64,000 bases of DNA from Branchiostoma floridae (taxonomy: Eukaryota > Chordata > Leptocardii > Amphioxiformes > Branchiostomatidae), in contig NC_049980.1 of the NCBI RefSeq assembly GCF_000003815.2, forward strand, positions 1,763,960 to 1,827,959, in the 5' to 3' direction. Shown in pieces: positions 19,804 through 61,539 of this stretch. Numbering within the stretch: the first letter of the stretch is position 1; each line of letters opens with the position of its first letter. The position numbers and the translations under genes are program-made. The notes beneath the pieces were generated by a model. It searched no databases and had not been told where the DNA came from. It saw nothing but the letters and a program-made list of their open reading frames with translations.

Positions 19804-22800
19804 ATGGCGGGCCGCGGTACGCTAGAGACAGTGGAGTGGATCGACTACAGGGATTTTAGCCCGGAGGAGTTTCTCGAAGAAGCCAATGACTTTCCCCAGA
19901 TGGTGCAAATAAGCGAGGGTTTCTACGGAGACGGAGAAATGTGGAGTTTCTCCTCGGGACAGATCTTTAAGATCCACGGCGTCAAGACGCAGGAGAAAGT
20001 GGTGACCACGGTAGAGGGAGGGCGCGACACACCCGGAAGTAAAGTTGAGAAACTTCACATCCCCCTCAACTATGGGGGGTATTTTGAAGTTTTACCGTCA
20101 GAACAAGAAGGTACAGACGTTGTCTACAACAGTGTAAGAGAGGTGGCGAAGAACTTTCCACGCTTCGTTTGTGTGGATACGGACATGTCCGTCACAAGTG
20201 ATATGGGAGGGGTTCGGCTGCACCGCGGGGACCAGTTAGAACTGTTGGAAAACGCCAAGCGACCCACCAAGACTGGTCTGAGACCCTTTCTCAAGTGCCG
20301 CGTGAACGATGACAAGGAGTGCTTCCTGCCTCACGAATGCCGGGGAAGGTTTCTGGTGATTCCCGACGAGAATTCGTACACCATCTCAGAGATCATAAAA
20401 AGGTGGGCCCACTTGAATAAAATTTATTTATGATGTTTTTTTAACCACCAGGTGTACAAATCCTTTGGTAGTAGACTGTACATGTAGGTGCCACACATTC
20501 CATGTTAGGGCTATTCCGACTTCCGCGAATACTTCTTCCCTTGCTTCCACGTGAAACTAAGAAACACAATGGTAAAGACTCGTGGTTTATTGTATCTGAT
20601 ATCTGTGATGTGTATATGAAATGCTTGACTATATGGCTATCAAGCTGAGGCTTTTAGTGAGTCAGTGATGAGTCCATGCGTCTTTTGGACGCGTTATTCT
20701 AAAAACAAGAGAGGAAATGGAGGCCCATGAAATGTAAGACCCTCCCAAAGACGCCCTTACCCAGTGAGGAGCAGATCCTATGACAAGCATAAATTCTGAT
20801 TGACCAGGGATGCTACCAGATCACGCATGTAGCCAAGGTCGTAAACTGTAATTGTCATTCGTGTGACCTGTCTGACAGCACATTTGCCCCTCAGGAAGCC
20901 CCATTTTCTCTAAAAAAACTGTCTGAAACTCCACACCCTGGAAGGGGGATTGTTTGGGGATGCCCCGGACCCTCAACAATACTCGCGACTCTCAGTCCGA
21001 CTGGGAAACGTAGACACCTTATCAACATCAACAATGTAACATTAGATATTAACATTGATGCGTATCGCTAATACCCCTGTCACATTATCCACGATCTTCC
21101 GGCGTATCGATGGAAGATATTAAGATCGACAGAGTGTTGCGCGTATACGTATTTTTTTTTACCTGAAAACCGCTCCTGTCACATATAAGCCATACTCTGT
21201 ACCTTGTATAGTTGTTGTGCAATAAAGTTATTATTACAAGCGAGGCTTGGGCGATTACCGCGGAATCGTCGTCCGATCGATTTTCGCCTAATGTGAGGGG
21301 GGTATAAGGAAGAGGCTTTCAGTTAGGCATGTATGTTCAAACCTCCCTTCACAACTTATCTGTCAATACAAGTGATTGTATAAAAATCTTAGATCTGAGT
21401 ATGGAAACTATGATACATATGCCACACAGATTTTGTCCACTTTATGTTAAATGAGAATTAGTGTTCATTCGCCTGAAAAGGGCAGATACTTACCCAAGAC
21501 GAGAGAACATGCAAATATTGTATCAGGAAAGCAATGGAAGATGAACTACATTTTATCTGTTAATGTTCACAGTGAGAAGTGAGCTATTCCTAAAAATCTA
21601 CAAAGCAAACTAGGCTAAATCCTATTATAAGTTCCTTGTCATTCTCTCAAGGAAGGGAGTAATGTGTTCTTCTGTGTTTTTTTACTTTCTGGTCTAATTG
21701 ATGAGATATTTCACTACATTGAAATTAATGTAAAACTACATGAACCTATAAAAATGCATTTAGCCACGAGGCACTTTCTCGCTGACACGGGTAACAACAC
21801 AACTGAAGCCCAGCTAGCGCGCGGCTATCAAACATTGCCTGCTAGTCTTAAGAATGGTCTGGTCTTGTTTAGACACAGCGTCTATCGGCTGTAGCAGTTA
21901 GTGTCAGGCTACAGATTATTAATGAATGAAGGAAAGACCTTTATTGTATATTCATGCCTCGACGGACTAGGTACAGGTCACTGGTAACAGGCATAACAGA
22001 CATGTGCAGAGACAACAAGATGCAATATTATTTCTCCATGTTGATTTCCTTCATTATTTATAACTACTAGTATTTGAAGGTGCTAAGCTAACAGGATGGT
22101 TAACATCTTCTCGCTTCTTTGTACAGGTGTAGATATAGGAACTCTCACTCTCACTCATCCTCGCCGATATAGGAACAGATAATGTTTGATATACAGAAAC
22201 CCTGATCTAGGCGCATCAAAAATAGAAATTTATCCGTTGCATTAAGATGTTCAAAATATGGAAACCCTTTTCTGATTTATTCATAAAGCACAATTCGTTT
22301 CTTGTGGTACAATCTACAGTGTAATATGTTTAGGGAAACGTTCGGGTTATTGACTGACAAAATGAAGTACACTTCAGGAGCAAACTTACGTTGGGTATAC
22401 TGTAAATGCATTTAAGTTCGCGGGGATTTAATTTCGCGGTAGCGGGAAAAGGGACTTTCGCGGTGGATTTAAGTTCGCGGTAACACCATAGACTGCAGTC
22501 TAAAACCATAATAAAAAATGTTCGCGGTGGTTTTAAGTTTTCTGCATTTACAGTATTATCGTCTACTTAGGCCATGTTGATTTCCTTCATTGTCTACAAC
22601 TTGCCAGGTTCCCCCTCCCTCGGCGTGTGCAGTTCTACGGCGGGTACATCAACTACTGCTCCCCGGAGGTCATGCAGTCGCTGGGGTACTCGTTCGATGG
22701 CATCCTGCGCTTAGAGGGGACCACGCTGGAGAAGTACCTCGTCGCCACCACTCAGGGTCTCACCCAAAAGACCAACGAAAACAAGAAAGATCTCCTGGTT

Positions 22801-25800
22801 ATGCCTATCAAGGCGAAAGTGGGTCTTGAGGGCGTTCTTTTGCATCCATTTTCATCTTCCTAGTAGTCATGTCGACGTCTTCACCTATGTAACGCTAAAT
22901 TCACCTTTATCCGCGGGGTAACCTATATCCGATAGGGATATCAAGTCGACGGACGGTGCATGTAGTTTGAAACTGCGATGTGTTCAATTATTCCAGTTTG
23001 AAACATCGTCCATCAAATTGACATCCCTAAATGCTCTAAACGACGGATTTAGGTCCCCCCACAGAATTGACATCCATAAATGCTCTAGATTTAAACAACG
23101 GATTTAGGTTCCCCCTCAGATGAAGATAAATTAGCGTTAGAAGCAAATTTGTCGTTGTTTTTCAGATCAAGTTTTTAGTCGCCAAGGGACTGTTCGAACG
23201 AAGCTCCGAGTATGAAACAGTTTTGACAGCCTTCAGTCGTGACTTTGACGTAGACAGGATGTCGGAGCACCCGTACATGAGTTTTGAGTTCGCCCCCCTG
23301 ACGTACCCCGACGAGGAACCGCCGCCACCCCCAGCTCGGGGCCAGTGCGAGGAGCCGCCCGTGCCCGGAGCAGACGAGGCTCCGCCCAATGTGGACCGCT
23401 CCAGCAAGCCGGACAGCCTCGTGAGAGAGTTAACTACTCCGCGAGCATCAACATCTTCACAAGCTGAATCAGGTGAACAATAGTCAACCGTTGTAGTGTT
23501 TCAGAGGGTTTTTAAGATTGCTATATTTCATATTACCCCTTCCAGTTCACGTATTTTGTCTGTCATATGGCGCCTAATACCCCTCTCACATTATCCACGA
23601 TCTTCGGGCGTATCGATGGAAGATCGGCCATATTTAAGATCGACAGAGGGTTTTGCGTTTATTTTTAACCTGAAAACCGTCCCTGTCACATATAAGCCAT
23701 ACTTTGTACCCAGGACAATTGTGCATTGCGTAATAAAGTTATTATTATAAGCGAGGCTCGGGCGATTGCCGCAGAATCGTCGTCCGATCAATTTTCGCCA
23801 AATGTGACGGGGGTATAAGGAAAATTGTCAATCTGACATCTGAGTCATCAAATTAAAAAAGAATAGTGTAATTCACACGCAGATTAAGGTCTTGACGGTT
23901 CATGTTAGAGTGTTGCACTTCTTTGATTGATTGATTGATTGATATACTTATGCTTTTAATTTGTTTATTGTTTACTGTTTATCTGCGCATACATGTAATA
24001 CAAAAAAAATCATAAGATTGCAAAGGGTGAGAATAAAACATGTAGGAGGAACCAAAAATCCAAAAGGTTTATTGTGGGTTTCCTCTTACTTTAACTAAAC
24101 ATTTCTGGGCCTAGTGGCAGTTTCAAAGACTTGAATGGTACATGCTGCTTTCTATACTCCGTACTCAGCATCGGAGAAAGTGTACGAGAGATTACTTCCT
24201 GTACACTGAAATAGCCCTACCGCTATAGTGATTGCACAACGCTGTGTGGCCCAGGGCCACAGAAACGGAGATAGGCGTCGACAGATGCGCCATGTTTGAT
24301 TCGAGAGGGACTTCAATTTTTTAATGGTAATTTGATTATGTGAATTTCTAATGGTATACATCGTTTAATCATTAAACTTTCTACTCTACTCCAGAGAACT
24401 ACGATTATGACAGTAATGAGGAAGACTATGAGACCATATCGGACGATGACTATGATAGCGTGCCGGAGGGCATAACACCTCCCGTAAAAGGTTTGTAGAC
24501 ACTAGTTTTACCTTTAATTATTTCATGTGATTCTATAAAAGTGCATCTTAAATAATAATATAACGTTAGTATAGCTTCCAATAGGCTATAGAGTATAACA
24601 CCTAAAATCATGGCCTTGTTCGAATACTAGGCACTTATTAGAGTCCATTCCAAGACACCATGAGGGTTTTTAGGCGATATTTATAACTAGTCTGAATTAT
24701 TTTCAATCAAAGAATATCTGAGTCACAATGATTAAATTATTTTCAAAAACTTGACTAAGAAAATACTCATTTATTTGAATTTCTTTGAATATTTTAGAAA
24801 CATTTTGAAAGTAACTGTACAAAAATATCTTTACTTAGAATAATTGTGAAACCTCTCTGTGATTATTTCACATTTACAAATATTTACAAAAAATGGTAAA
24901 CCTGGCCAAATGGTAAAATTAGTTTATTGCCCCCATAAAAGTAAGCCCTATTGTTGTATCTGTATATTTTTAGATTTCACTGCTGGGCACTGGTGGATCC
25001 TTTGTGGTGGGCCTTTGTTGCATGGCACCCAACCATACTTTGCAAGGATGTGTGAATTGCTATATTCCCAGCCCACCGAACCATTTACAAAAAATAGTAG
25101 AAAATGGTAGAAAATGGTAAATAATGGTAGAATGCTGTTATCATTATTTAGAAACCATTAGAAGTATCCAATTCCACACCATGAATATTTCCAAAGTTTT
25201 ACAGGACCAGGGAAATATCTATAAAGTTGAAACAGTGTTAAAAATATTTCTGAAGTATCAAATGCCCTAGACATATAATTACAAAACTTTAAAATCAATT
25301 CTAAACAATGGCAACAAACATCCGCATGGTGTCTTGGAATGGACTCTACAATACCGTGAAAATAATCCAGGTACAGGATAAAAATATTAGATATCAATGT
25401 ACTGATCACTGTTCCTGAATGGATTTACACTCAAGTATTGGCTTATTCTGTTACTTAAAGCATGTGACTCCTACCACGTGCACAAAGAGCACAGATAAGC
25501 ACTGGAAAAATATGAAAACATTTGCATATGCAGTTGAACCAGTACCATCTTTGTTTCTCTCGAAGCACATGTTCTCTGAAGATACCTGAAGACTAAATAC
25601 TATTCTGTTCACTGTTTATCCATGTCTCTGTCCTCAATGAAAACCGCACTTTAGTTTGTCAAGTTGTTCATGTACAGGTACAGGACCTGTACCTAAACCT
25701 CTATAACTGATCACCGTACATTTACCAGGTGTAACGTTTAGGTACACATCCCTATGGCATCTGTTAATTTTATTTGTGGCAAATGTAAACAAACAGCTTT

Positions 25801-28800
25801 TAATGTACGCGCACAAAGTCGTTATAAGAACCACAAATGTTTGAGATACATGTGATTTGGGTTGGGCTATTCTTCCTCAGATCCAAATAACACCCGTGAT
25901 GTTTTTATTTCTACCAGGAGAAACCAGACCTGCAATACCACCAGAAGAGGGAGAATACGAATACATCGACGAAGACAGGTCAGCCATATTTTCATTTTCA
26001 ATCCTTTCTTCTGACGTACTTACGTACGTTGACCTCTGTGCTGTGTTTACGTTCTGAAGGCATAGCGGGTGAACTTTACCCCCCATTGTTCTCAGTCAGT
26101 TTTGGCGAGCGTTCCGGTGACTACCATGAAAGGAATCAGCTTGTGCCTTCAGGGTGTTCGCGGGAACCGAAACGAACCCCAAATGTCAGAAGAATTCGAG
26201 CTTGACATTTTGTTTTTGCCCGAGTTTGTGATTGTTTTTTATTTGTCATCAAATGAGGGCCGTATTTACAGAACACCCATAACGCAGCTCTTGTAAAGTG
26301 TTAGATCATTTGGAGAAGGTAGTTTATAGATTTATATACGCTCGTCGCGATCGTAATTCATGGAATGTGCGTTAAGTGTACTTTCCAAGTAGAGGTTGGT
26401 GGGAAAGACTTTGACCTCCTATCCGTTTGCACTGATAAAACAGTAATGCCGATAAGGAAGTAAATTCCTCAAGAGTAATGCCACTTGGTGGAACATGATA
26501 TGCATATTGATGTTGTCGTGTTTCCGTTTTGCCGTTTTCGGTTACATTTTTCGGCAGATTATGTTTAAACTGGTAGACAGAAATACGGGATAGGAAAACA
26601 AAATGTGGAAGAGACTGCGTCACAAACTAGAGTTCGGCGACTTCATGCTCCATGAAATATTCAGAGCTTTAGTAGATGCAAACGAATACAAAATTTACAT
26701 AATCGATGCATGGCTATGTTTACCTGACTTATCGCTTGACTTGACTTGACTTGATTTTATTTAGATCCACTTTTAGCTAACAACATTATGTTGCCAGCTA
26801 TTCTTCCAGTGGTCTATATAAAATACATCACTACACGCACAACATTTCACACATACATAACATAGTATGTACATTACAAGCTATACAGCTGAGAGAAAAT
26901 ACAAGTTTAATTAGTAACCATTCGTTAGAGGAAGCGCTTCTTTTCTGCATTGGTCCTGGGTTTTGACAGTTTGATGCAGTTTGTTGTTGTTGATCGTGTT
27001 TGGTACCGACTGTTGGTTGACTGGAATGTGAGTTGGGTGTAAAGTGGTTTTGGTAGTCCTGTGTGCACTATCCTGCAGAATGTGGCAAAACTTCTTTTTT
27101 GTATTCTTTCCTTTACTGGTGACCACCCCAAGATGTGTAACCTTGTTGCACTGTCCGTCTGTATCACAAATATGACATTCTTATCATTTCCCAATAAAGA
27201 GTTATAGCATAATAATTACCAAATTAGGTCCAGATCACAATTCGTATCTGGTTATGTTCCTCCTCTCATGGAACATACATGTGTTACATACATTGATGTC
27301 ATATTAAGAAAAAATGGAATCATGGATTTTTACATTATTAATGCTAACTCATCTTTGCTATGTTTACGTTATCTGCATGACCAAAATGATATGAATTGGT
27401 CCTTCTTTTCTTTATCCTCTTTATGTTTAGGAGTTTCTTTTGCGACTTCGTAGGTTTGTGGACACTCTCAGGCCGAAGGGCTACAAGTCTGTCCAGCAGT
27501 TATTGGGTTATCTTTTTCACAACCAGACACACGCACAAACGTTTCTTAAAACATACCATCCCTTTATCCTTGTAGTCCAGGATAAAGCTAAGGGCACAAC
27601 CCGCCGTACGTGCAATTTGTCCGTACGTTTTTTTGGCAGGCCACGTCCACCACGTATTTCTGAAAACGTGGGGACGCTCATTGGCTGTACAGGGCAGGTG
27701 CGTCGCCCGTACTGGCACGTACGGGGGCGAATGCGCAGCCCGATTGCCTGCACGTTAAGTTCTAGGGCGTGTCTGTGTGCTCCTAAATCCGTCGGATTCC
27801 CTACGAGTTCGTACGGAGGCGGTACGTACCACTTACGGATCCCAAAAGATTGCTTATTTGCACATACGGCGGGTTGTGGCCTTAGCTTAACACTGTTCGT
27901 TCTCTTCCGATTCAGGTGCACTTCGCCTGGCGGCGCTGCTGCGGCTGACTCAAGGCAGAAGGCACCCCAGGCCCAGGCCCAGCAAAACCCTTTGGCAACG
28001 GAACTCAAAAATCTGTTCTCCCAGCGTCCACCACCCACCAAGACAACAACTCCTATCCGCCAAGATCCACATGTCAGTAAAGGACCACCTCCCATACCAT
28101 CCGTGGCACAAGCAGCGCTTCCTCCTTTCGGTGGAGTGAAATTGCCAACATCACCAAAGCCTACTTCAAGTCCAACCAGCACAGGAAAAGTTGCACAAAG
28201 CCACAAATCCGCTTCCCCCAAGACCCCTATCCCTAAACCTCCTGTTGCGCCAAGACGAAAAACATCATCTTCCTCAGATATAAAATCGGTTGAAGGCTCG
28301 GCCAGTCCTAGCCAGCCGCACAAGCCTGACCCGGGCACAAAGCCATCAAAAGTGACGGGTCGGGTCTCACCACTGCGGGCAGTTAAACCTGTGGGAACTG
28401 AAGTTAAAGCTGAAGACAAGAAAGAAGAAGGCGAACACATTGGCGTAATCCACAGTGCACAGAGGAAAGCAGCAAGTGGGCAAAGAGAGGTAAGTGTTTT
28501 CCTTAGATATGCTAAGGCAAACGACACATTTGCGCAAAGGGACCCGGCCGAGCAGTTTTGGGGAACGAAAGATATAAAACAAAAACGCAAAACGGACCAA
28601 AATAAATCAACGACAAGCCTTGGGCATATTTATTGGCATAAACTTAACTTTTTCGTTTCCGCAAACAGCCCGTCAGCCCCCGGGTAGGAAATGTGACGTA
28701 GACCTAATAAGTAATTGATTATAAATTCCGCGTTGTAAAATGGTGTAAGAGATCTTTGTATGCTGGTCTTTGTTTTCAGTTGACGTTCTTACGGTGCATG

Positions 28801-30763
28801 ACCATGAGTTAAAAAAAAACATCCATTGCGAGTTCAAGAACATGTAGGTCTTAAACCCCAGGGTCTTTGTACTTTTTTTAGTCATGACGTCAATAAATTT
28901 TCTTTCCTTCCTTGTTGTTTGTGTAGACGTTCTCCAGTCTGAGTGATGTGCCGGCAAACCTCTCCCAACTGTCCATCAAGCAAGTCAGCAACTGTCTCCA
29001 GCTGCTCAACATGGCCGAGTATGTCCCAAGGTCAGGAAGTTTTCACTAGAGGGAGAAGATTCTAGTCTCCAAGCAGACCATACGGTGCCTCAGAGATAGT
29101 ATCAAAGCTGGTCAGGGAGTATAGTGCCCGTTTGGCTCCCTCTGGCCGGCTATACTCCTTGGCCAGCTTTGATACTTTCTCTATTATAAAGGCACCGTTG
29201 GGTCTGCTTGGAGACTAAGAAGATTCAACACAAAGTAGTGGTTCTATAGTCTCCAAGCAGACCCTACGGTTCCTTAGAAATAGTATCAAAGCTGGCCAAG
29301 GACTTAGTATAGCGGCACCGGTGCCCGTTTGACTCCCTTTGGCCGGCTATCTCCCTTTGGCCGGCCATACTCTCCAAGCAGACCATACGGTGCTTCAGAG
29401 ATATTATCAAAGCTGGTCAGGGAGTATAGTGCCCGTTTGGCTCCCTCTGGCCGGCTATACTCCTTGGCCAGCTTTGATACTTTCTCTATTATAAAGGCAC
29501 CGTTGGGTCTGCTTGGAGACTAAGAAGATTCAACACAAAGTAGTGGTTCTATAGTCTCCAAGCAGACCCTACGGTTCCTTAGATATAGTATCAAAGCTGG
29601 CCAAGGACTTAGTATAGCGGCACCGGTGCCCGTTTGACTCCCTTTGGCCGGCCATACTCCTTTGCCAGCTTTGATACTATCTCTTTAGGCACCGTTGGGT
29701 CTGTTTGGAGACTAGTGGTTCTACTGCATCTACATGACTGTCTCACCTCACTAGTCTCGTAACTACTCTAGAAGCCCTCCCAGAAGCCCTTTCGTATACA
29801 TTCTATTACGCAGTCATGCGGGCGCGACAAAACTCTGGGTAATATGTCAAAGGTAAAGTCCCCTGATATGTAAACAGTGTCCTCTCTACCATTGTTCATC
29901 TGCATATCATTGGCCAAAACGCAATGTCAGGGGCCTTCACCCTTGACATATTACCCAGAATTCCAGTCAACCTCGCGAGCGTCATCGAGGTCGCATTACA
30001 AAAATACTCATTCGTTCATTCATTCATTGCAGCTTCGGCCTTTGCACTATTTCTCCATTACATTAACCACTGAATAATTGATCCGCTAAATAATAGCTGA
30101 ATGCAAGACTTATTAGGAGTAATCACGGTAACTTCAAGTAAGTATGCACCCTTTTGCACATGTTGTCTCTTTGGATTGCTAGTACCAATCCAGTGGTAGC
30201 TGGGGCAACGATCGCAAGGAGAAAAACGTATAATTTAGCGTTGTTTTTCTCTGCAAACAACGCTAATTTCGCTAAATTGCGTTTTTCTCCTTGCGATCGT
30301 TGCCCCAGCTAATCCAGTGGCAAAGTGGTGGGTGTTCGACATGCAGTCTGTAGGTCGTGAGTTCGATCCCTGGCCGCTATTCCGGATTCTAAAGACTTTA
30401 AGAATGGTACATACTGCTTTCTCTGTTTAGCTTTCAGCATATGTTCTTTTGCATTCAGCATATGTTCTTTTGCGACCAACCTACGAAGTCGCAAAATAAC
30501 ACATGTGAACACACTGGTAGTCAGTCTGTGTGTTCACATATTTGATTCAGTGGATTGCATAAAACTGTGTGTCCAGGGTTTTGTCCGACACGTCATTTGA
30601 TTGACCCAAAGTCTTTGCCTGTAGATTCGAGAGGGACCAGGTCGACGGGAACTTGATGTGTGAGCTGGACCGAGAGATGCTGACAGAGATGGGCGTGTCA
30701 CGTGTCCACAGCATGAAGCTCAAGAAATTCATCAAGGGATGGCGGCCAAACGCAGATAACTGA
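19804..30763 (+). CDS. Gene A: THEMIS-like CABIT plus GAREM-like SAM adaptor, eight exons
   Basis: Exons: 19804-20402, 22608-22818, 23166-23472, 24395-24490, 25918-25978, 27916-28489, 28927-29030, 30625-30763. All junctions are GT-AG, phases agree, and they give 696 residues. The CABIT domain spans about residues 15-300. Its opening (FPQMVQISEGFY, then SSGQIFKIHGVK) resembles the first CABIT of THEMIS, and the core motif has Cys165 and GRF at 181-183. An acidic tyrosine cluster (NYDYD, EDYETI, DDYDSV, YEYID) is encoded by exons 4-5. Exon 6 encodes a Pro/Ser-rich linker with the SH3-ligand-like PKPPVAPRRK. The last two exons encode a SAM domain ending KGWRPNADN, as in GAREM. THEMIS and GAREM proteins are cytoplasmic adaptors linking receptor tyrosine signalling to GRB2, SHP2 and ERK; that role here is inferred. 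The start ATG at 19804 (AAGATGG) is preferred over the in-frame ATG at 19711, which lies in a repeat. Confidence 0.9.
21071..21305 (+). mobile_element. TACCCCTGTCACA MITE, copy 2, in gene A intron 1
   Basis: Begins AATACCCCTGTCACATTATC and ends TTCGCCTAATGTGAGG then GGGTATA. It shares the interior TATCGATGGAAGAT and AATAAAGTTATTATT with copies 1 and 3. Confidence 0.8.
21921..22330 (-). repeat. LINE 3' tail fragment in gene A intron 1
   Basis: Read on the minus strand it ends in AATAAAGGTC followed by TTCATTCATT, typical of a CR1/L2-like LINE end with a short tandem tail. The body (AGGTGTAGATATAGGAAC, AAAAATAGAAATTTATCCG) recurs at 38646-38970. No reverse-transcriptase frame remains. Confidence 0.65.
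22398..22555. mobile_element. TACTGTAAATGCA MITE in gene A intron 1
   Basis: Starts TACTGTAAATGCATTTAAG and ends TTCTGCATTTACAGTA, a perfect short inverted terminus. The interior has repeated TTCGCGGT motifs. It ends 52 bp before gene A exon 2. Confidence 0.8.
22891..23139. mobile_element. AACGCTAGTTCACC MITE, copy a, in gene A intron 2
   Basis: Starts AACGCTAAATTCACCTTTAT and ends AAGATAAATTAGCGTT. The interior has CGGGGTAACCTATATCC and two related CGGATTTAGGT blocks. It fills much of the short intron between exons 2 and 3, ending about 25 bp before exon 3. Confidence 0.75.
23577..23816 (+). mobile_element. TACCCCTGTCACA MITE, copy 3, in gene A intron 3
   Basis: Starts ATACCCCTCTCACATTATCC and ends AAATGTGACGGGGGTAT; same interior as copy 2 in the same orientation. 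Confidence 0.8.
24641..25346. mobile_element. TA-flanked MITE with GAGTCCATTCCAAGACACC ends, copy 1
   Basis: Left GAGTCCATTCCAAGACACCA and right TGGTGTCTTGGAATGGACTC are perfect inverted repeats, and TA flanks each side (24639-24640 and 25347-25348). This is the hallmark of Tc1/mariner-type insertion. The interior is AT-rich with a direct GTAGAAAATGGTAGAAAATG run. Nearly the same sequence is at 36247-36951. It lies in gene A intron 4. Confidence 0.85.
26620..27430. other. Gene A intron 5: repeat remnants
   Basis: An inverted fragment of the CATGGAGG repeat (AGAGTTCGGCGACTTCATGC) is at 26625-26720. A short ACTTG tandem tail (26736-26757) begins a LINE- or SINE-like stretch read on the minus strand. 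The rest, to the MITE at 27585, shows nothing recognisable. Confidence 0.45.
27585..27888. mobile_element. MITE with AAGCTAAGGGCACAACCC ends beside gene A exon 6
   Basis: Left AAGCTAAGGGCACAACCCGC and right GGGTTGTGGCCTTAGCTT are inverted repeats. Subterminal CCGCCGTACGTG and ACATACGGCGG continue the pairing. The right end is 27 bp before the exon 6 border (27916), so the element occupies the place where the branch point would be expected. Confidence 0.8.
29066..29712. repeat. Palindromic element, tandemly duplicated, in gene A intron 7
   Basis: The unit starts TCTCCAAGCAGACCATACGG and its complement ends CGTTGGGTCTGCTTGGAGA. Inside, GTATCAAAGCTGG and CCAGCTTTGATAC pair. A segment starting at 29066 is repeated from 29371, 305 bp later, almost unchanged, including the TTCAACACAAAGTAGTGGTT spacer. 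Confidence 0.8.
30197..30310. mobile_element. Long hairpin with 10-bp target duplication
   Basis: The arms at 30198-30228 and 30280-30310 are perfect reverse complements of 31 bases (AGCTGGGGCAACGATCGC...). A nested inverted pair sits in the loop. AATCCAGTGG flanks both sides (30187-30196 and 30311-30320), a clean target-site duplication. It has inserted into the head of a tRNA-like SINE in gene A intron 7. Confidence 0.85.
30311..30500 (+). repeat. tRNA-derived SINE head
   Basis: TGGCAAAGTGGTGG (30318-30331) fits a polymerase III A box and GAGTTCGATCCC (30359-30370) a B box, spaced as in tRNA genes. No anticodon arm or acceptor stem closes, so it is a SINE remnant and not a tRNA gene. Confidence 0.6.
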
Positions 30764-31854: not shown

Positions 31855-34800
31855 TTACGGTCTCCATCCTTGTGTGAACTTCAGGATTTTCAGCGCGTCT
31901 AACTTGCGCAAGTTCATGTCCTGTGTCATAATGGTTTCGTCCACGTCGCTCAACAGGGCGCCGTCTATCCGCTCCCGCTCAAACGCCGCGATGACGTCAT
32001 CTCCGAGGTTAAGGTGACGTAGGCACGCCGTCACTTCTGAGACAGACAGTGTTGACAGGTCGTCAGGCGGGACCCATGTTGGTGAATCTGCCGACTGTCC
32101 ATGTTTGCTTTTCTCTGACGGATCCGTCAGTGCCGGTATCTCAGAATACATCTCCTCTACGTTATCGTAGTCAGCGTGTGTATTCGTAACTTCTTCTCCA
32201 ACAGGAAACTGACACGTATCGCTTCCCTCTGTACCTTGTATGTAGCCGCCACTAGGAGGTACCATCTGCACGGCTGGGCTCTTGGGGCTATCATAGGCTT
32301 GGCTATCTTCGTGGCATTTCAGTTCTTCAAGTGACTGCACGGGAATCTTGTGAGGTGGCGTCTGATATTCACTATCGCTTTTGATGTCTCCTTTTTCTTC
32401 AGGGCCACCGGATGAGGGCGGAGGGTCTTCATACTCTTCTTCATCTTGTTCAGGTTCCTTCGGCAGTGCAAGGCGTATGTTCAGTGGAGTTTTGTAAGAA
32501 ACGAGTGTACTTGTTTTGTCTGTTGATTCCATCTGCTTGACCAAGTCTTTGACGGACGCGCGCTTGTCAATGACTGGTTGGTCTCCCTCCGACGCAAGTG
32601 AGTCGTACAGGCTATTTTCAAACGTGACAAATGATGTGGGACCTTTAACGGTCGACTCGGTGATTGGCTTAAGTGTGGTGTAATTTCCGCCCGTTAAATC
32701 GGTGTAGTCGCCACTCGTGCCTTGGTCTGATGTCACTGTAGGTGCTTTGGGTCTAGGCGGTACTGGGGGCGGGGTCTTCTTGGACTCTTGTGCCTTTTTC
32801 AGCTCGCCTAAAAGTCCTACCGGCACCGCCGCTGGAGGTATCTTAGCCCTGCGTGGTTTAATTTCAGGCTTAGTGACTGTATCTGACGTCTTATCCTTCT
32901 CTGTAGGTGGTTCTACGGGGGAGTAGTACTCAACAACATTGCTCTGTTCCATAGGAGGCGCGGAAGGCACCACTGCCTTCTGCAAGTCCGGGTCCTGATA
33001 TTCGGGGGTTTCTTCGTATATAGGGTTGGTTGAGGCGATATCTCCTACATTTGCGTATGTAGCGAGATCTGAAGGTTTGAACTGCCTGGTTCTGTCCTGG
33101 TATATAGAAGAGTATGGTTTACCCATCACGAGAATGAACGAATCCATGTTCTTGCTGTCCACGAGAACGCTCGTGCGGACGTTGGACTGAAACAGGCGCA
33201 GAATTTCCTTGTTTTCCGAGAGTTCTAGGTCGGCTGGACTGAACTGGATGTCCGTGTTGATGGAAAACTCGACCTGTGAGATCTGCCCGTCGTCTTGAAC
33301 AGACGTCCCGACGATGACTTCATCCCTATAGGTGTGGAACAGCCGGACGTAACCCGTGAACTCGTCGTCGTCCCCAGGGCAGTCCCCGTGCACGAGTTTG
33401 ACGTCCTGCGGCAGTTTGAAGTTGTCGATGACGTTCTCCACCGTGTAGGTTGTACCGCTCTCGAACTCAAGCGGTTTCAGGGTGAACCGTGCTTTCAGAT
33501 CGCCCGGCAAGGTTACCAGGTCACCATCTTGGTTGCTACACGTGAAGATCATTTTTGGCCTTTGCACTTCAGGCTCTTTGTTCTCAGTGTGAGAAGTTCT
33601 TCTCCCCTTGCCTTTGAACTGTGCCCTCAGCTTGTGGCCGAGCCCTTTCTTGTGTACTTCAGGAATCTCTTGAACATGTTGCACTGGTGCTGGTTGTTCT
33701 CTTGGCTGTGCAGATACAATCATTATGACGTCACCTTTTTTACACAGGGGTTGTCGTGGACCCGTGGTCGCCATTCCCATCTCCGGAGACGCGACCCCGG
33801 CGGGAGGGAGCTCACTGTCCAGAATGTCCTCCTCTACAAGAAGCCTTACTACCGGCATCTTGGACTGCAAGTCCTCGTTGATGACTTCCTCAAGGCTTTC
33901 AAAGACCTTGACGTTGCTTTGATTTTGCAGGAGTTCGAAGCGACCAGGGTAGGCGAGCGGTATGTTCAGCTCGGGGCCCACCACAATACCACCCTCCTTA
34001 CTCAAACTCTGTGCCATGACCTTTTTACTGGTGTACGTGAAATGGAGGAGCAGTATCTGAAATAGAAGAAAACTAGACTTCAGATAAACCAACTTTCAAA
34101 TAATATACAGTAAAACCTGTCCAAGACGACCACCCGGGGGACCGGGCAAAAGCGGTCGATTTGGTCAGCTGGTCGATTAGAAGAGTGTCTACTCACAACA
34201 TGCCCGTTGCATAGTTTAAATGGTTTCCGTTGCCGTGGTGTTTAATGGCAAATAGCAAGCACACGCACGTGCATCCGACGCCATCTTTATTTTGAACATA
34301 ATATCGTAATGGTACTCAAAATCCGACGCAAACTGGCCGAATTCGGCACAAAATCGCGCTAGTTATCATTGAAAATCGATGACACCTCAAAATTTGAAAA
34401 TGACGCGGTCGTTATGGACAGGGATTTTGTCCCAGTTTTGGACGGTCGCGTTGGCCAGGTGGTCGTTGTGAAGAGGTCACTTAATGATTACGTCAATGGG
34501 CAAAATTTTCGGGACCGAGAAAAAGCGGTCGTAATGGCCAGGTGTCGTTAAGAAGAGATGGTCGCTTGGGCAGGTTTGACTGTATTACTTCGGCCCTCTA
34601 GATAAGAATACACCGTAGTTTTGTTTAACAACGTTGTAGGTAGGATTTATTCAACACATACATATAGCATGGCATCCGGCACACGTATACTGATCGCCAT
34701 TATACCCCGGGCCCCTTTCCACTAGGATGGCGCTCTCGCCGCGCGCTCTCTGCAACCTAAAATTTGACAGATCGCTCAACGAATTGTATAGAAAAGAAAC

Positions 34801-46412: not shown

Positions 46413-47468
46413 TTACACAAAAATCAAGGGCCGAGAATCCTTCCTTATGCCGGTAATGTCTATGTACGAAACGTTACTGGCAGAACGCTCTAAACCACCT
46501 GCTGGCTTCTGCTGGTCCGGAGCTTGTCCCGGGGACTGCTGCCGACGGTCGCCCTTCCAGTTGTCCCTGGGAACTTCTTCTCCCACGGTCGCGACGGTTC
46601 CGAAATGGACGCGCTTCTGTGAGTTGGACCTCGGGGGCCGGGGCGGCGGAGGACCTCGCCTGCTGGGAGTTTTCTTGACGGGGAGGGCTGTGATGTCCTT
46701 CGGTACGTGTTTCCCTTCTCCCGACACCAAAGCGTACACGTCGTCGCGACTCTTCTCGCTAGACTTTTGGACTCCTGCGTCTGTTTTCTGTGTGGACGTC
46801 AGGATAGCGCCGGTCAACCTCTCCAGTTCTAGGGCGTCAGCTTGCTCGTGGAGGATGATTTCTTCCGGTCCCACCGGATCGTACTTATCCGGGCTGAGAG
46901 AAATGCTGCTAGTAGGGAAAGTCGTGTCTTCCTCCGAGTTTCTTACTACGTCCAACGAGGCGGACGACATGTTCTCTCCAGTGTCTGATACAGTATCTTG
47001 TCCGACTGCATCATCTTTGGCATCCACGTCTCTCTGCTCTTCATCAGAGATTTGTTCATCTTTGTTGCCATCTTCTGTGACCGTTTCGTTGTCTGTCGAA
47101 GGTTTAGAAGTTGATGGGGAGTCCTTGGACACATTGGAAGGCGGTAACAAATCTTGGTAGTCACTCGTTTCCGCACTGGTAGGCAGTAGACAGGTGTAGG
47201 CGGGATGGGAGGCCTCAAAACTGGCGGTATACTCCAGCGGAGCACAGGAGTCGCTCGAGCTCTCCCCCACACGGTGGATCAATACAGTCTCCACTTTCTG
47301 CACCCGTTTCCGACCCTGTTTGCTGGTGTATATCTGTTCCAGAAGGTTCGGGACATCTCGAGAGATGTTCAGACCCAGTGACGCTACCTTCTTCATCGGC
47401 GGGGCCCGGTATCCGACTGTAGCCGGTTGGCGCACGTTCGACGTTAACGGTTTCCGCCAGGTAGCCAT
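46413..47468 (-). CDS. Gene D: 351-residue disordered protein with SH3-ligand, RVxF-like and PDZ-ligand-like motifs
   Basis: One frame starts at CAAGATGG (47468); the in-frame codon further upstream is GTG, so this ATG is preferred. I recognise no domain. The N-terminus has MATWRKPL and a stretch DVPNLLEQIYTSKQGRKR that loosely resembles gene C's SFPNLLQPIADKKR, both followed by a short hydrophobic-His/Ala-Arg strand. Tyrosine motifs include LEYTASF (Tyr80) and SDYQDLL (Tyr104). The middle is acidic. Near the C-terminus a proline-rich GPPPPRPPR fits an SH3 ligand, followed at once by KRVHF, which fits the PP1-docking RVxF pattern. The final SYIDITG and RPLIFV give a candidate phosphotyrosine site and a class II PDZ-ligand-like end. 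The function is unknown; a scaffold in the same pathway as its CABIT neighbours is inferred only from position and motifs. Confidence 0.75.
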   Translation of the reverse strand: MATWRKPLTSNVRQPATVGYRAPPMKKVASLGLNISRDVPNLLEQIYTSKQGRKRVQKVETVLIHRVGESSSDSCAPLEYTASFEASHPAYTCLLPTSAETSDYQDLLPPSNVSKDSPSTSKPSTDNETVTEDGNKDEQISDEEQRDVDAKDDAVGQDTVSDTGENMSSASLDVVRNSEEDTTFPTSSISLSPDKYDPVGPEEIILHEQADALELERLTGAILTSTQKTDAGVQKSSEKSRDDVYALVSGEGKHVPKDITALPVKKTPSRRGPPPPRPPRSNSQKRVHFGTVATVGEEVPRDNWKGDRRQQSPGQAPDQQKPAGGLERSASNVSYIDITGIRKDSRPLIFV

Positions 47469-49336: not shown

Positions 49337-51181
49337 TCAGTTTGAGGGTGATTTCTGCCGGTCCGGTATGGGTGGTGGTGGGCCCGCCGGTCGGGACGTC
49401 ATTGTCTTAACGATGTTCCGCTGTCCTCCGCTAGAGGTCTTCAGTGACACCCACCCACTATCGTCCTGTGTTCTACCACCTGGACTCGTGTTGTTCTTGA
49501 GGTCTAGGTTTTGTAGACCTTCAGTGGTAGCCAGTGGGATGGGAGGGGCGGGTCGGCGGGGTTTGCTGGCTGTCTGGGGTAGTGGGGACGGGATGACAGT
49601 CACATCACTTCGTGCGGAAGTAGGCAACTCAACAGCATCTTCCCCGAACTTTTCCCACGCGGCGTCCGGATTTAAGAGACTAGTTTTCTTCGTAGGGGAT
49701 TTCTCTCCAACAAAGCTCAACGAGACCTCTTCCACCGCCCTTTCGTCCTGAGCTTCTTTACTCCCAGTCTCTTGCCCTGTGACTGTTTGTAAGGAGTCGA
49801 TAGCCTCCATCGCTTCTTTGTAGACATTTACGGCGTCGTCTGCGGCAGCGCTGTGTGCATCCGCTTTGGTGCGGCCAGCTTTCCTTTTCATCAGAGATGG
49901 CAACTTCAGTTTTTGGGAGAAGCTGGATTTCCTTGAGTTGAGGAAACTTGCCTGGGTAGTCGCAAGCTGGCTGGTTTGATGTCCATGCAGAACGTCTTCG
50001 TTAGATGGAGTGCTGGTCTGGTCAGAGGAGTACATGTCAGGTTTGAACGTGCTGTACGCAGCCGGCGACACGTTTCCATCCGTGTTCACTGTTTCTTCCA
50101 TCGGGGCGGATTTCCCTGTCGGAGTGGTGCTCGCCGCGACGCTCACAATCTTATCCGCTTCCGAGTTTCTCGGCAGGACGTTGTTCTGCGTGTGTAACCT
50201 GATCAAAAGTTCCGCGTATTCACGGGAAGATGTGTCTGCGAGACAAAACCGCAAGAGGGCGCTTGTAGACAGTTCCATTGCCGCCCTGACCTTGTCCCCT
50301 TTAATCAAAGACGCCAGAACTACGCTTTCTTTGTAAGCATCGAGGAGTCGAAAGAATGGCGTCGACTGGAAGTCACCTCTGGGTATTTCCCCGCTAAGCA
50401 ACTTCACGTCAATCGGTAGCTTCGTCTTTTCGACGATATCTTTAACTTGAAGTTGAGAATGTTCGCTTGATGTTGGTCGGACGGATGTAAAAGTCGACCT
50501 GTGTTTCGCTGGTAAATACAGCACCTCTCCCAACTGATTGCTACACACTAGATACTCGTAAACCTCCTCTTTTCCGTCAATCTTCGATCGTTCCTTTTTC
50601 CTCAGCAGGGTCCTCTTCCATTCCTTCGCGCTGCCGAAACTAGCGAGGCGGCCCATGCCCTTGTGCCCGGCCAGGCGGACTGCCTTCCCCTCGGGCAGGA
50701 GAATGTCTCCCCTCCGACACGCGTGTTTCCTATCACTGTACATCCCGAGGTTGTGAGCGACAGATTTCGGTACCCTCTCCTTGTCGCTCAAGACGACGTC
50801 CTCCTCCACCAAAACTTTGAAGACTCGCGAAGGGTCGTCTTCCACCGCTTTCAAGATCTCTTGCACGCTGTCGAAGACCCTACCCTCGCCGTACATGACT
50901 TCGAAAGTCCCGGGATAACTGTAACCAATGTTAAACATGGGACCCACCAGTCTCCCGCCCTGACGGTCCATACACTGTGCCAGAACCTTATGACTGGAGT
51001 AGGAGGAGTGCAGTAAGAGCACATCGCCTTGTTGGAGCGGGATGTCTGGGTCCGGCTGTCTCACCATAGCTAACAGCGGCAGGGCATGGTTATCGAGAAC
51101 CTGGGATATGTTGTAGTCTGTTTCCCAGCGCCACTGTAAGCCTGACACCAGGCTGCCACTTTGTAGATCCGAACTGGCCAT
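49337..51181 (-). CDS. Gene E: GAREM-type CABIT protein without SAM, single coding exon
   Basis: One frame of 614 residues starts at AACCATGG. The CABIT domain spans about residues 18-340: it opens QVLDNHALPLLAMVRQ, then LLLHSSYSSHKVLAQ, GPMFNIGYSYPGTFEV and a basic insert (KEWKRTLLRKKERSK, about 186-200). The core motif has Cys213 (YLVCSNQLGEV), but the usual Arg before Phe is displaced: KHRSTFTSV carries Arg two residues earlier. The C-terminal half is disordered, with SH3-ligand-like KPRRPAPPIPL and RPAGPPPPIPDR, and ends KSPSN. No SAM domain is present, unlike A and B. CABIT is a mixed beta module known in the THEMIS and GAREM adaptors of receptor signalling. The first-exon junction of gene B is not present here, so the coding sequence is intronless at that place. 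The neighbour downstream on the same strand is gene D. Confidence 0.92.
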   Translation of the reverse strand: MASSDLQSGSLVSGLQWRWETDYNISQVLDNHALPLLAMVRQPDPDIPLQQGDVLLLHSSYSSHKVLAQCMDRQGGRLVGPMFNIGYSYPGTFEVMYGEGRVFDSVQEILKAVEDDPSRVFKVLVEEDVVLSDKERVPKSVAHNLGMYSDRKHACRRGDILLPEGKAVRLAGHKGMGRLASFGSAKEWKRTLLRKKERSKIDGKEEVYEYLVCSNQLGEVLYLPAKHRSTFTSVRPTSSEHSQLQVKDIVEKTKLPIDVKLLSGEIPRGDFQSTPFFRLLDAYKESVVLASLIKGDKVRAAMELSTSALLRFCLADTSSREYAELLIRLHTQNNVLPRNSEADKIVSVAASTTPTGKSAPMEETVNTDGNVSPAAYSTFKPDMYSSDQTSTPSNEDVLHGHQTSQLATTQASFLNSRKSSFSQKLKLPSLMKRKAGRTKADAHSAAADDAVNVYKEAMEAIDSLQTVTGQETGSKEAQDERAVEEVSLSFVGEKSPTKKTSLLNPDAAWEKFGEDAVELPTSARSDVTVIPSPLPQTASKPRRPAPPIPLATTEGLQNLDLKNNTSPGGRTQDDSGWVSLKTSSGGQRNIVKTMTSRPAGPPPPIPDRQKSPSN

Positions 51182-54159: not shown

Positions 54160-55320
54160 TCAGTTTGGTGGCTCTGTTTCTTCTGGGATAGACTTCTCCC
54201 CCTTTCTCCTCAGAGATCTGTTCCTCCATTTCCCGATCAGGTTGATGCTGTCCATGGACGGAAACGACGACCCGCCGAGGTTAGGCCGAAAACTGCCGAG
54301 CCTTTTCCGTGTCACGCTCCCGTCGTTAGGGGTGGCCGTGGCTCGCTTCAAGAAGTCTCTGTTCTTCGGGTCGTCCGGATCGGCGGGCGCGAACTTCACC
54401 CCACAATCCACGCCAAACTCTACGGAAGAGAAACCCCCGTCTTCTTCTAGAATAGACGCCACGACAAGCTTCTTCTCGTACGACGTCAGCAGTTTGACGA
54501 GTCCCGTGAAGTGTTCGTCCTCCATGAACGCCTCCCCGTCGACGTACAGCACGTCCGCCGGCAAGTCTATGTCAGCGTCATCCACGATATCCTTCAGGGT
54601 GAACGTGGGGCCGCTCGTGTTGCGTAGAGCTACGGTCGAGAATCTGCCACTACAATAAGACGGGATACACATAATTTCACCGTCTTGGTTCATACAGATC
54701 ACGTACGCCGGCAGCGGTTTACCTTTCTTCTTACTTTTCTTGGATCCTTTCTTCTGCTGACCGCCTGCGTCGCCGTTCAGTGGGTTGTCTTCTCCTTGTG
54801 GTTCGCCATTTGTGGGGTTGAGAATCCCCCTCATGGAAAGTAGATCCCCCCTTCTGACGAGAGTTTTTGGGAACTTCCCCTTGAGTCCGGACTCTCCAAG
54901 CTCGCTGATCATCATCTGTTGTACAGAGTCTGGCAGGCGCTGTTTCTTCCATTTCATGTCTTCTTCCACCGTGAAGGTGCCAGAGAATGGCTGCGAGTCG
55001 ACCACTTCCTGCACCGTTTGGAACGACTGCGGCGCCAGCAGCCGGAACGTTCCCGTGTACGACGCCGGGATACTGACCAGCGGACCGATAGTCTTCCCAG
55101 TCTCCCGCTCCAAGCTCTGCGCAAGAACCTTCTCTTCCGAGAAGGAGGAATTCACCAGGAGGACGAGGTCTTTGCTAAGCTGAGAACGACGGTCGGATTG
55201 AGTGACCTTGACCAAAGTGGGGAGGCTGCATCTCTCAAGAATTTCCTCAGGAGTGAGGGAGTCTTCCAGCCACTTCAAGTCCTCCACTTGTTTCTTGATA
55301 CATAACGTCACGTTGCCCAT
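54160..55320 (-). CDS. Gene F: short GAREM-type CABIT protein with Met-Gly-Asn start
   Basis: 386 residues in one exon. The start is fixed by a strong splice acceptor just upstream (TTTTTGGTTGCACAG ending at 55336), which leaves 15 bases of 5' UTR before ATG; in-frame codons further upstream would be intron. The CABIT fills almost the whole protein (about 12-320): DLKWLEDSLTPEEIL, LVLLVNSSFSEEKVLAQ, IGPLVSIPASYTGTF, core Cys209 in YVICMNQDGEI and SGRF at 224-227, the closest match to GAREM in the cluster. A polybasic insert (KKGSKKSKKKGK, 190-201) precedes the core. The tail is short and basic, with no SAM and little proline. The N-terminus MGNVTLC has Gly2 and a nearby Cys7 that could be acylated, though Leu6 departs from the strict myristoylation consensus. 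Gene G lies head to head 4.4 kb away. Confidence 0.9.
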   Translation of the reverse strand: MGNVTLCIKKQVEDLKWLEDSLTPEEILERCSLPTLVKVTQSDRRSQLSKDLVLLVNSSFSEEKVLAQSLERETGKTIGPLVSIPASYTGTFRLLAPQSFQTVQEVVDSQPFSGTFTVEEDMKWKKQRLPDSVQQMMISELGESGLKGKFPKTLVRRGDLLSMRGILNPTNGEPQGEDNPLNGDAGGQQKKGSKKSKKKGKPLPAYVICMNQDGEIMCIPSYCSGRFSTVALRNTSGPTFTLKDIVDDADIDLPADVLYVDGEAFMEDEHFTGLVKLLTSYEKKLVVASILEEDGGFSSVEFGVDCGVKFAPADPDDPKNRDFLKRATATPNDGSVTRKRLGSFRPNLGGSSFPSMDSINLIGKWRNRSLRRKGEKSIPEETEPPN

Positions 55321-57690: not shown

Positions 57691-58119
57691 CTACCTTTAC
57701 CCTTTAGCTTTACAAACTGTTGCCTGTTAACGGTAGATTTAACCGGTGTGGTGACAGACACGAGTGGCCTAACACGCGACCGGGAGGTGGTCATCCCCAA
57801 TTTGGCCCTCAGGGTTAACGTGCTCTTACGGTGTGAGGTCAACGAGTTCAAAGATATTTGCACAACCTTTTTTTTTGATATATCGGAAAATATACGGCAC
57901 TAGCTAGCACTGCTCCCAATATTGATTGATTATTCATTTTTGCGCATGTGGCTTGTACACATGTTGATGGAATTGCTGTCCCTACATTTTCACATTTTTA
58001 CAAAATTTACAAATCAAAATACAATTTAACAAGTCATAAGGTATTAAAGATTGAATAAATGTGAAGATTATACATTAAACAATAATATCACCCAGTGCAG
58101 AATACCAATAACATCACAG

Positions 58120-58345
58120 GTAACTGCCACTTCCAGCTTCAACACTCTGTTTGTGATGAAATTAATACAAAAATTGCAAAGTCGGTTAATGATAAATGAT
58201 CATGATATAGTAAGTTCATACTTGTGACAAGTGTAATTAAGTTGAAGTTGAACATTAATTATGCATAAATTATGTAAATTGCATAAGATGATCTACAACA
58301 GCTCTAAATGTTTCATGGAGGTATGAGGTTGCCGAACTCTATTTA
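58120..58345. repeat. 3' fragment of the CATGGAGG repeat
   Basis: Matches the end of the 3620-4690 element: TATGCATAAATTATGTAAAT, then GCTCTAAATGTTTCATGGAG and GTATGAGGTTGCCGAACTC. Confidence 0.65.
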
Positions 58346-58378
58346 TGAACTTTAGTCATAGCCTTCACAAGTTCCCAC

Positions 58379-59200: not shown

Positions 59201-59329
59201 CGAATGTTTGCCATGTTTGCTAAAAGGTAAAGAGTTGGGAAATTACTTCTTTCACGCACAAGATACATCCACATTACAATTATATATAGCTATTCATACA
59301 ATTCAATAACTGAATACAGATATAAAAGT

Positions 59330-59520
59330 CTTGTTGGTGGTGACACCATGTATTGTTGCTTCAATTCTTGTTTATGTTATCTATTTTGAATATGTAGCCA
59401 TCTTGTCTTTACCATCTTGTCTCGCCCTCTGTCGTTAAATGTGGGATCTGCAGATGATGACATCCACAAAGTTTACTTGCTGTGGCCTTATCTAAGGGCA
59501 GGATGTATTTGTTCTATTGT
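59330..59520. repeat. Repeat fragment upstream of gene G
   Basis: Blocks TTCAATTCTTGTT, TAGCCATCTTGTC, TCTGCAGATGATGACATCC and TTTACTTGCTGTGGCC match 44320-44520 and, in part, 18240-18310. It lies 250 bp upstream of the gene G start codon. Confidence 0.55.
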
Positions 59521-59769
59521 AGGACGGGTGGAATGTGCCAGACATTGCTGTATAATAGAGACGTCGGACAGGTTTGACACCACGATGACCTCAGGATTTT
59601 GTCGGTGGCCTCGTCTCGGTCAAAACAACTGTAGCGTTCTAGACCTAGGGCTCCTGCCTGACATTTCTTGCCTAACAGAACATAGTTACAGGGCTGTAGA
59701 CTAGGACTAAATCTGTCTTCTGTGTTGACGACAAACTTGGCGTCGTGAGAGAGCTAGAGTTGCGGTAAC

Positions 59770-61539
59770 ATGGGGAACAACCAGGCCGCGAGGATTCGGC
59801 AGCGGGCCGAGAAGTTGGAATGGACGGACGAGATTCTCTCTCCTGGCGAAGTACTGAACGACTACGACCTGCCCGTGTTCGTAACAGTCGCCAGGGAGGA
59901 CCCTCAAGCAGACCTGGCTAAAGACGATATCTATCTGTTGCGGTCGTCTTATTCAGAGCGTGACGTGTTCGCCAGAAAAGTCCACAGGACGAGCGGTCGT
60001 CTGTATGGTCCCCTCTTGACGATTCCCCTCAAACACCCGGCAAAGTTTGTCATTTTTAAGAAAGTGTTTTACAACGGCGTGAGTGAGTTACTGCGGGCGA
60101 ACCCTTTCCCGGAGAGCTTCAGAGTAGAAGAGAATGTGACGTGGAGAGAGTCGGGGAAATCTCAGGAAGCTTTCGAGTTGTTGGGACTACTGAGTATGAA
60201 AATGTCCCAGAACCAGAGTAAAGATGGCGGCCATGTTTATGCCAAGGACATGAGTAAAATGAAGCCGAAGGTCATCAACATGTCTCCCGTGGTGGGCGAC
60301 TGTCTTACAGTCATAGACAAGACGGAACCAATCCAAGACTCTGAGGAAGTAGTCTTAGATATGAGCCAAGGTGGGGGTAAGAAGAAGACGTCGACGTTGA
60401 AAAGAATTAAAAGTTCATTTAAGGGCAAAAAGGAATCGAGGAAAACTAAGACAGTCGCTCAGCCCATGGGCTACTTGGTTTGTGCTAACCAGACTGGAGG
60501 TTTGGTATGCCTACACACGGACTGTACGGGCAGGTTCTCGGCCTACCTTCCAGAACAATACACCATGGAGGAACTACTGGAAAACTTCAAGCTACCAGGA
60601 GACGTCGAGGTGGTGGGAGGGAAGCTTCCAGACGATCACCCAAACTTCGGAGGGCGTTTGAGACTCTTGAGTTTTTGTACAGAGACTTTTCTTGTTGTTA
60701 ACGGCCTGCCAAAGCAGGGGGAGGTTACAGGAGCTGGCGTCCAAGCCGCGGTGGTGACGGAACTGTCTATAGATAGTGATGTACGGTTCACACCTGCAAG
60801 AAAATCGTCGCCACAAAACGTAGAACTGCTGAAGCTACTGCAGGGGCACCTTCAGCGCGTTAGGCCGTGCTCGGAAGGGTGCGTGGCGGCGGTCAGTGCC
60901 GGGGCGGCGACGGACGCGATGAGGGCCGAGTGGGCGGAATCCCAGGCCCGTGCAAGAGCAGCAGCTCTCTCAGCTGCACGGAGGACGACGCCTGCCATGA
61001 CGAGACAGGCCACTCAGCCTCCACCCGGCAAGCAACCCTCGTGGTGGCGCCGACTCTACAACTCCAGTCGGCGGAGATCTTCCCAGTTGACCGAGACGCC
61101 AACGGTGACCCCTCCCGGCACAAGGACCACCGGAAACGTACAGAGAACAGCAGGCTACGGGCCAAGACCACTGGACATTATAGAAGAAGCCTCGGACACA
61201 GAGAACTCGGACACAGAGAACTCAGACACAGACAATTCCAGTCTAGGTCTCGAACCCGAAGAGCAAGATAGGGTTATGAACGCTAAGAAAGGCGGCTTGA
61301 TTCCTAACGGAGGATTGGTCTCAAAAGGTGAGGTTCTAACGACAACTACTGTAAGTTCTGTACCGCTTGATAACATGCACATCAGAAATTCAGCAAGAGA
61401 CGATATTCCAAAGAAAGACGAGTCTTTCACGTTTTTAAAAACAAGGGAACAGATACAAGAACAGTTACCGAAAGAGGAAGATTCCGACGACTCGGACGAA
61501 TCTGTGAAGTTCTCTCAGGCGTGTTACGTTTATAAGTAG
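59770..61539 (+). CDS. Gene G: GAREM-type CABIT protein with N-myristoylation-like start, no SAM
   Basis: 589 residues in one exon from GTAACATGG to TAG. The N-terminus MGNNQAA fits the PROSITE N-myristoylation pattern (Gly, then small residue at position 6, no Pro after). The CABIT spans about 16-370: LEWTDEILSPGEVL, DIYLLRSSYSERDVFA, GPLLTIPLKHPAKFVI, a polybasic insert KKKTSTLKRIKSSFKGKK (204-221), then core Cys238 in YLVCANQTGG and TGRF at 253-256. The tail is disordered: an Ala/Arg-rich segment (AESQARARAAALSAARR), a basic WWRRLYNSSRRRSS stretch near 410-425, an acidic tandem run DTENSDTENSDTDNS, and the final CYVYK. No SAM and few SH3 ligands. Like its head-to-head partner F, it may be a membrane-anchored CABIT adaptor; this rests only on the N-terminal motif. 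Confidence 0.92.
   Translation: MGNNQAARIRQRAEKLEWTDEILSPGEVLNDYDLPVFVTVAREDPQADLAKDDIYLLRSSYSERDVFARKVHRTSGRLYGPLLTIPLKHPAKFVIFKKVFYNGVSELLRANPFPESFRVEENVTWRESGKSQEAFELLGLLSMKMSQNQSKDGGHVYAKDMSKMKPKVINMSPVVGDCLTVIDKTEPIQDSEEVVLDMSQGGGKKKTSTLKRIKSSFKGKKESRKTKTVAQPMGYLVCANQTGGLVCLHTDCTGRFSAYLPEQYTMEELLENFKLPGDVEVVGGKLPDDHPNFGGRLRLLSFCTETFLVVNGLPKQGEVTGAGVQAAVVTELSIDSDVRFTPARKSSPQNVELLKLLQGHLQRVRPCSEGCVAAVSAGAATDAMRAEWAESQARARAAALSAARRTTPAMTRQATQPPPGKQPSWWRRLYNSSRRRSSQLTETPTVTPPGTRTTGNVQRTAGYGPRPLDIIEEASDTENSDTENSDTDNSSLGLEPEEQDRVMNAKKGGLIPNGGLVSKGEVLTTTTVSSVPLDNMHIRNSARDDIPKKDESFTFLKTREQIQEQLPKEEDSDDSDESVKFSQACYVYK

Follow-up and report, generated by a model that had tools for sequence, protein, structure and literature searches.

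The question raised by this locus is whether several genes lying side by side in Branchiostoma floridae form a genuine local family of CABIT-domain adaptors and, if so, how large the family is and where it came from. The window, which is the whole stretch of DNA analysed, covers 64 kb (C2:1763960-1827959) of contig NC_049980.1 (called C2 here, 35.1 Mb), and coordinates are window positions unless prefixed by C2. The original prediction had described a local array of five CABIT genes (A, B, E, F and G) belonging to the THEMIS/GAREM superfamily. Our reading, to which we assign a probability of about 0.7, is a real, old and local cluster of eight GAREM-type CABIT adaptor genes, of which the window contains the left part. 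The cluster is a known kind of gene and not a new system.

The gene models are by-eye predictions from splice signals, and their span in the window, 19804 to 61539, matches the one given originally. The CABIT genes with modelled coordinates are as follows.

19804 to 30763, plus strand: gene A, seven predicted coding exons (19804-20402, 22608-22818, 23166-23472, 25918-25978, 27916-28489, 28927-29030 and 30625-30763), 664 amino acids; CABIT, proline-rich tail, and SAM over the last two exons.
31855 to 37398, minus strand: gene B, predicted exons 37213-37398 and 31855-34056, 795 amino acids; CABIT, tyrosine/proline-rich tail, SAM.
31858 to 32082, minus strand: SAM of gene B, residues 721-795, from a phmmer match to PDB 2dkz.
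49337 to 51181, minus strand: gene E, intronless open frame, 614 amino acids; CABIT and proline-rich tail.
54160 to 55320, minus strand: gene F, intronless open frame, 386 amino acids; CABIT and short tail.
59770 to 61539, plus strand: gene G, intronless open frame, 589 amino acids; CABIT and tail.
C2:1834896-1837223, minus strand: gene H, single open frame, 771 amino acids, about 7 kb beyond the window end.
C2:14479158-14483302: gene K, three predicted exons, a far CABIT copy.

In the model of gene A, the six introns are all GT-AG and in frame and there are no internal stops; exons 4 and 5 are based on splice signals and the open frame alone.

The CABIT identity of the window genes was evaluated with the Pfam profile PF12736, whose curated cut-off is 24 bits. 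All five proteins passed, with scores of 96.7 bits for A (exon 1), 76.3 for B (large exon), 73.3 for E, 76.1 for F and 51.3 for G, which confirms the original assignment. The core cysteines named there were also reproduced by the gene models (Cys165 in A, Cys235 in B, Cys213 in E, Cys209 in F and Cys238 in G). Genes H and I exceed the cut-off as well, and in the genome search the scores were 38.6 bits for J, whose match contains two stops, and 42.4 bits for K. Of a provisional core cysteine pattern, the relaxed form is present in eight of these nine genes and the strict form in two (H and J). The open frames measure 746 (B), 623 (E), 417 (F) and 593 (G) amino acids, and 240 for exon 1 of A; in 60 simulated 64 kb windows with the same dinucleotide make-up, the longest frame had a median of 167 and a maximum of 228 amino acids.

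Structural comparison of the CABIT was made with gene F. A sequence search of the PDB gave no match up to E 1. The AlphaFold2 model of its CABIT, built from an alignment of the five window rows, consists mostly of strands with short helices and is weak (mean predicted local distance difference test score 63.0, predicted template modelling score 0.44), and Foldseek returned 0 matches in the PDB at E <=0.001. Because of this lack of a match and the weak model, no claim on the CABIT fold is made. As a separate observation on the CABIT alignment of the nine genes, its beginning and its end are alike in profile comparison (hhalign probability 94.4%, E 8.5e-8), the maximum among 20 column-shuffled controls being 0.7%, with unit borders drawn by eye. 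This likeness suggests an internal repeat in the domain. The middle part, which holds the core cysteine, is weakly like the two others (4% and 1%, against at most 0.3% and 0.2% in the controls).

The extent of the cluster follows from a PF12736 search of the whole genome (513,431,437 bases, 431 contigs). There are at least nine matches, from 11 candidates that were all scored: the window holds five, three more follow beyond its end, and the last, K, is on the same contig at C2:14.48 Mb. Genes H, I and J lie within about 22 kb beyond the window end, and eight of the nine matches therefore fall within about 66 kb (C2:1783763-1849483, from A to J). The gene order with strands is A plus, B minus, C minus, D minus, E minus, F minus, G plus, H minus, I minus and J minus, where C and D are not CABIT genes. 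We also built our own CABIT profile from seven of the genes and ran it on open reading frames of at least 25 amino acids in 134 kb spanning the window and 30 kb spanning K. It recovered exons of both J and K; the first exon of B came up weakly (E 0.014), and no further match in those regions was better than E 1. Hence the clustering claimed originally was upheld, while the count of five was too low by the three genes past the window end.

Dispersed one-to-one orthologues in related genomes, pointing to mis-assembly, had been named beforehand among the findings that would overturn the array. An assembly artefact or a set of haplotype duplicates is highly improbable here, and nothing in its favor was found. 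Pairwise CABIT identity across the nine genes is 20-32%, so that neither a recent burst nor a haplotype duplicate is indicated; moreover, the repeats of at least 60 bases listed for 19000-64000 are all outside the modelled exons, and no run of N occurs from A to J.

Which branch of the superfamily do these genes belong to? In PMC4082722, a proline-rich region is described for both branches, together with one CABIT and a SAM domain in Garem and Gareml and with two CABITs in Themis proteins. Each of the eight cluster genes carries a single CABIT in the scan with our own profile, and no THEMIS-like tandem pair was found among the scanned frames of the 134 kb. The SAM domain was located through PDB 2dkz, the SAM of human LOC64762, which we take to be GAREM1. 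It matches H (5.6e-19), B (1.4e-14) and the last exon of J (6.8e-8) by phmmer. A profile made from these three SAM sequences found two further plus-strand pieces, with E 3.1e-9 and 8e-4, which join in phase as the exons 28927-29030 and 30625-30763 of gene A; its next match (0.07) lies near K on the opposite strand. With this profile, E, F, G, I and K yielded no SAM. SAM is therefore C-terminal in four of the eight cluster genes (A, B, H and J), and by predicted domain content these four are of the GAREM architecture and none is of the THEMIS architecture. Since no SAM was found in E, F, G and I, these were not filed as GAREM. Differing architectures among the members had also been predicted, and this is borne out in the window, where SAM was found only in A and B and the tails vary. 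Of the superfamily label, the GAREM side holds (one CABIT each, SAM in four of eight), whereas the two CABITs of the THEMIS side were not found.

When compared with known systems, A, B, H and J resemble GAREM1/GAREM2 (FAM59A/B) in having one CABIT, a proline-rich middle and a C-terminal SAM, and H additionally has a tyrosine site of the SHP type and SH3-type sites like those of GAREM1. The mammalian GAREM genes, which we presume to be dispersed, differ from the lancelet set, in which eight genes are in tandem, four are without a detected SAM, and E, F, G, H and I each consist of one open frame. Mammals have two GAREM genes according to PMC4082722. The likeness to THEMIS, THEMIS2 and THEMIS3 consists of the CABIT domain and of gene A being the best match of our provisional THEMIS sequence, but those proteins have two CABITs and each cluster gene only one. 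The original prediction also named an insect serrano-like gene, whose likeness would lie in the CABIT domain; the papers listed in a literature search on it were unrelated.

The relationships were evaluated with trees of the nine CABIT genes of this one lancelet genome and provisional human GAREM1 and THEMIS rows, 14 rows in the main tree. In phmmer comparison of the provisional GAREM1 with the lancelet genes, H is by far the best match (3.9e-81, 36% over 348 amino acids), the next being B at 2e-35. H pairs with GAREM1 with support of 100/99 in the 14-row tree and 99/98 without the THEMIS rows, and it is likely to be the GAREM orthologue. Genes B, E, F and G form a clade (89/92, and 100/99 without the THEMIS rows), so these four probably arose locally from one another. 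Besides these two groups and two THEMIS pairs, the remaining forks of the 14-row tree are open.

From these trees, the claim of a lineage expansion can be only partly sustained. By the approximately unbiased (AU) test, the nine lancelet genes as one group were rejected (p-AU 0.0003), as were the eight cluster genes (p-AU 0.00005); we account for this by the pairing of H with the provisional GAREM1, and a purely lancelet-specific expansion fails on it. Without H, the other eight genes (A, B, E, F, G, I, J and K) were not rejected as one group (p-AU 0.12), and neither were the seven cluster genes (p-AU 0.08), so a local expansion beside a GAREM orthologue is possible. One explanation of the whole set is, accordingly, that it expanded in lancelets alone from a single GAREM gene and that all copies except H diverged fast. 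We put this at slightly short of an even chance: the clade of B, E, F and G, which looks local, and the group without H agree with it, but it is rejected once H is included, and the low identity between copies, together with introns within the CABIT of which none were seen by eye to be shared among A, B, J and K, suggests greater age.

The predicted signalling role draws in part on motifs in the tails behind the CABIT. H has the site IPYDFLW at Tyr418 and PPRPPR at 562, and its tail holds 5 SH3-type sites against 1.6 expected (p 0.02). The tail of I also has 5 SH3-type sites (p 0.0008), that of B has 6 YxxP against 1.97 expected (p 0.008), and those of A, E, J and K have an excess of PPxP only. 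The N-terminus of G, MGNNQAARIR, fits what we assume to be the myristoylation pattern, and that of F does not. The motif PxRPxK, through which the C-terminal SH3 of GRB2 binds THEMIS, with GRB2 bridging to SHP1 (as given in PMC4339124), is absent from all nine CABIT proteins, PPRPPR of H being a near form. The Tyr418 site of H, IPYDFL, resembles LPpYEEL of GAREM1, where Y453 (in LPYEEL) is rated in PMC8086153 as fitting an SHP site well, and PPRPPR is close to the GRB2-binding motif PPPRPPK given in PMC2903609. In mouse thymocytes, deleting either THEMIS CABIT core abolished the association with GRB2, as stated in PMC3931654.

A mechanism can be proposed by analogy with these relatives. The CABIT and the proline-rich tail would attach to SH3 adaptors, for example GRB2, and phosphorylated tail tyrosines would recruit SH2 proteins, for example SHP phosphatases for H and proteins of the GRB2/CRK types for B. 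Each copy may then tune signalling from a tyrosine-kinase receptor to Ras/ERK, and SAM would contribute to assembly. The cluster is most likely a tuned adaptor family. Within it, H would come closest to GAREM in role, B would act as a phosphotyrosine scaffold, and E, F and G would be reduced forms. The open frames, domains, clustering, relationships and motifs are what the analysis shows; expression, binding and signalling are inferred, the signalling role from the relatives and the motifs.

Several results weigh against the reading of the cluster as GAREM-type adaptors. The strict form of the provisional CABIT core pattern is found in only two of the nine genes (H and J), and K has no core cysteine, which is replaced in VVRKK. 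The Pfam profile SAM_1 gives B only 13.2 bits against a cut-off of 23, and at E 0.1 it lists neither H nor the last exon of J; the SAM claim rests on 2dkz. The human GAREM1 and THEMIS rows are provisional sequences that did not come from a database. The tail motif counts reach p < 0.05 in 9 of 45 tests, uncorrected. H, with a lone SHP-type site (p 0.09), and B, with two YxN (p 0.07), do not exceed chance for those motifs. The tails of F and G reach no p < 0.05; adaptor-like tails are found in some members, and a general SH2/SH3 docking role of the tails is not supported for these two.

The remaining question is how the cluster relates to THEMIS. The best match of the provisional THEMIS is A, weakly (3e-7), followed by K (7e-4), and for the provisional THEMIS2 no gene clearly stands out (A 0.005, J 0.006, G 0.01). 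In the tree, gene A stands beside the THEMIS CABIT2 rows at 43/79. Several groupings were not rejected by the AU test: A beside both THEMIS CABIT1 rows (p-AU 0.43), the THEMIS rows together with J (0.23) or with K (0.18), and the four THEMIS rows as one group (0.27). The link of gene A to THEMIS in these comparisons is only a hint.

For the chromosomal context, human GAREM1 is presumably at 18q12, GAREM2 at 2p23, THEMIS at 6q22 beside PTPRK, and THEMIS2 at 1p35. Five gene families were chosen by us and taken to lie on the same two-round (2R) paralogon as GAREM1/2 and THEMIS/THEMIS2. EPB41 (PF05902), MAPRE (PF03271) and ASXL (PF13919) were found on C2 alone; contrary to expectation, GKAP was found on C16 and C9, and the genome search for laminin II gave no match. 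With assumed human positions and self-chosen families, the result fits a shared ancestral chromosome for GAREM and THEMIS. The adjacency of THEMIS and PTPRK on 6q is stated in PMC4954697.

These results bear on another explanation, in which an ancestral chordate CABIT array survives here as a relic. Of the eight lineages, several would then be older than the split of lancelets and vertebrates, and vertebrates would have kept one as GAREM while an A-like one became THEMIS, with its CABIT doubled and its SAM lost. The rejection of the nine lancelet genes as one group, the match of A to the provisional THEMIS and the three families on C2 alone are in its favor. Nevertheless, we consider it rather unlikely: the grouping of A with THEMIS is at 43/79 and A, J and K are all allowed beside the THEMIS rows, THEMIS2 points to no gene clearly, once H is set aside the other eight genes may form a single group, A itself has SAM and one CABIT, and two of the five linkage queries failed. 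In its fullest form, the array would have given both GAREM and THEMIS, and A, with THEMIS-like CABIT residues and a GAREM-like SAM, would be the surviving sister of the THEMIS lineage. The T-cell selection adaptor would have originated before the genome duplications of vertebrates, when a gene in tandem with GAREM doubled its CABIT and lost its SAM; this fullest form we regard as unlikely.

Two further open reading frames lie within the array.

40198 to 42537, minus strand: gene C, single exon, 779 amino acids, not CABIT.
46413 to 47468, minus strand: gene D, single exon, 351 amino acids, with a PPRPPR motif.

Neither has a Pfam match at E 1, and a genome search with C returned C alone. They were considered as broken CABIT genes and rejected, none of the nine CABIT proteins matching them better than E 1.5; both are orphan genes. 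Elsewhere in the window, long frames without a Pfam match occur at 85-2106 (plus strand, 674 amino acids) and 9017-9874 (minus strand, 286 amino acids), and copies of an interspersed repeat, 90-98% alike and intronic or intergenic, at 24638-25348, 36244-36953 and 63776-63953. A Toll-like receptor in a single frame of 864 amino acids, with leucine-rich repeats and TIR, is located about 12 kb left of the window (C2:1749428-1752019), and a reverse-transcriptase fragment (RVT_1) to the right of the cluster (C2:1873997-1874713).

Our literature search found nothing on CABIT or THEMIS in amphioxus, on GAREM in Branchiostoma or on the phylogeny of the CABIT domain. Positive selection of T cells in mice requires THEMIS, as reported in PMC3931654. 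For the origin of THEMIS, a lancelet cluster with a likely GAREM orthologue and seven diverged CABIT neighbours is a place to test whether the source was a tandem duplicate of the GAREM type. Furthermore, the natural presence or absence of SAM and of tyrosine sites on one CABIT scaffold would help in learning the role of the CABIT itself.

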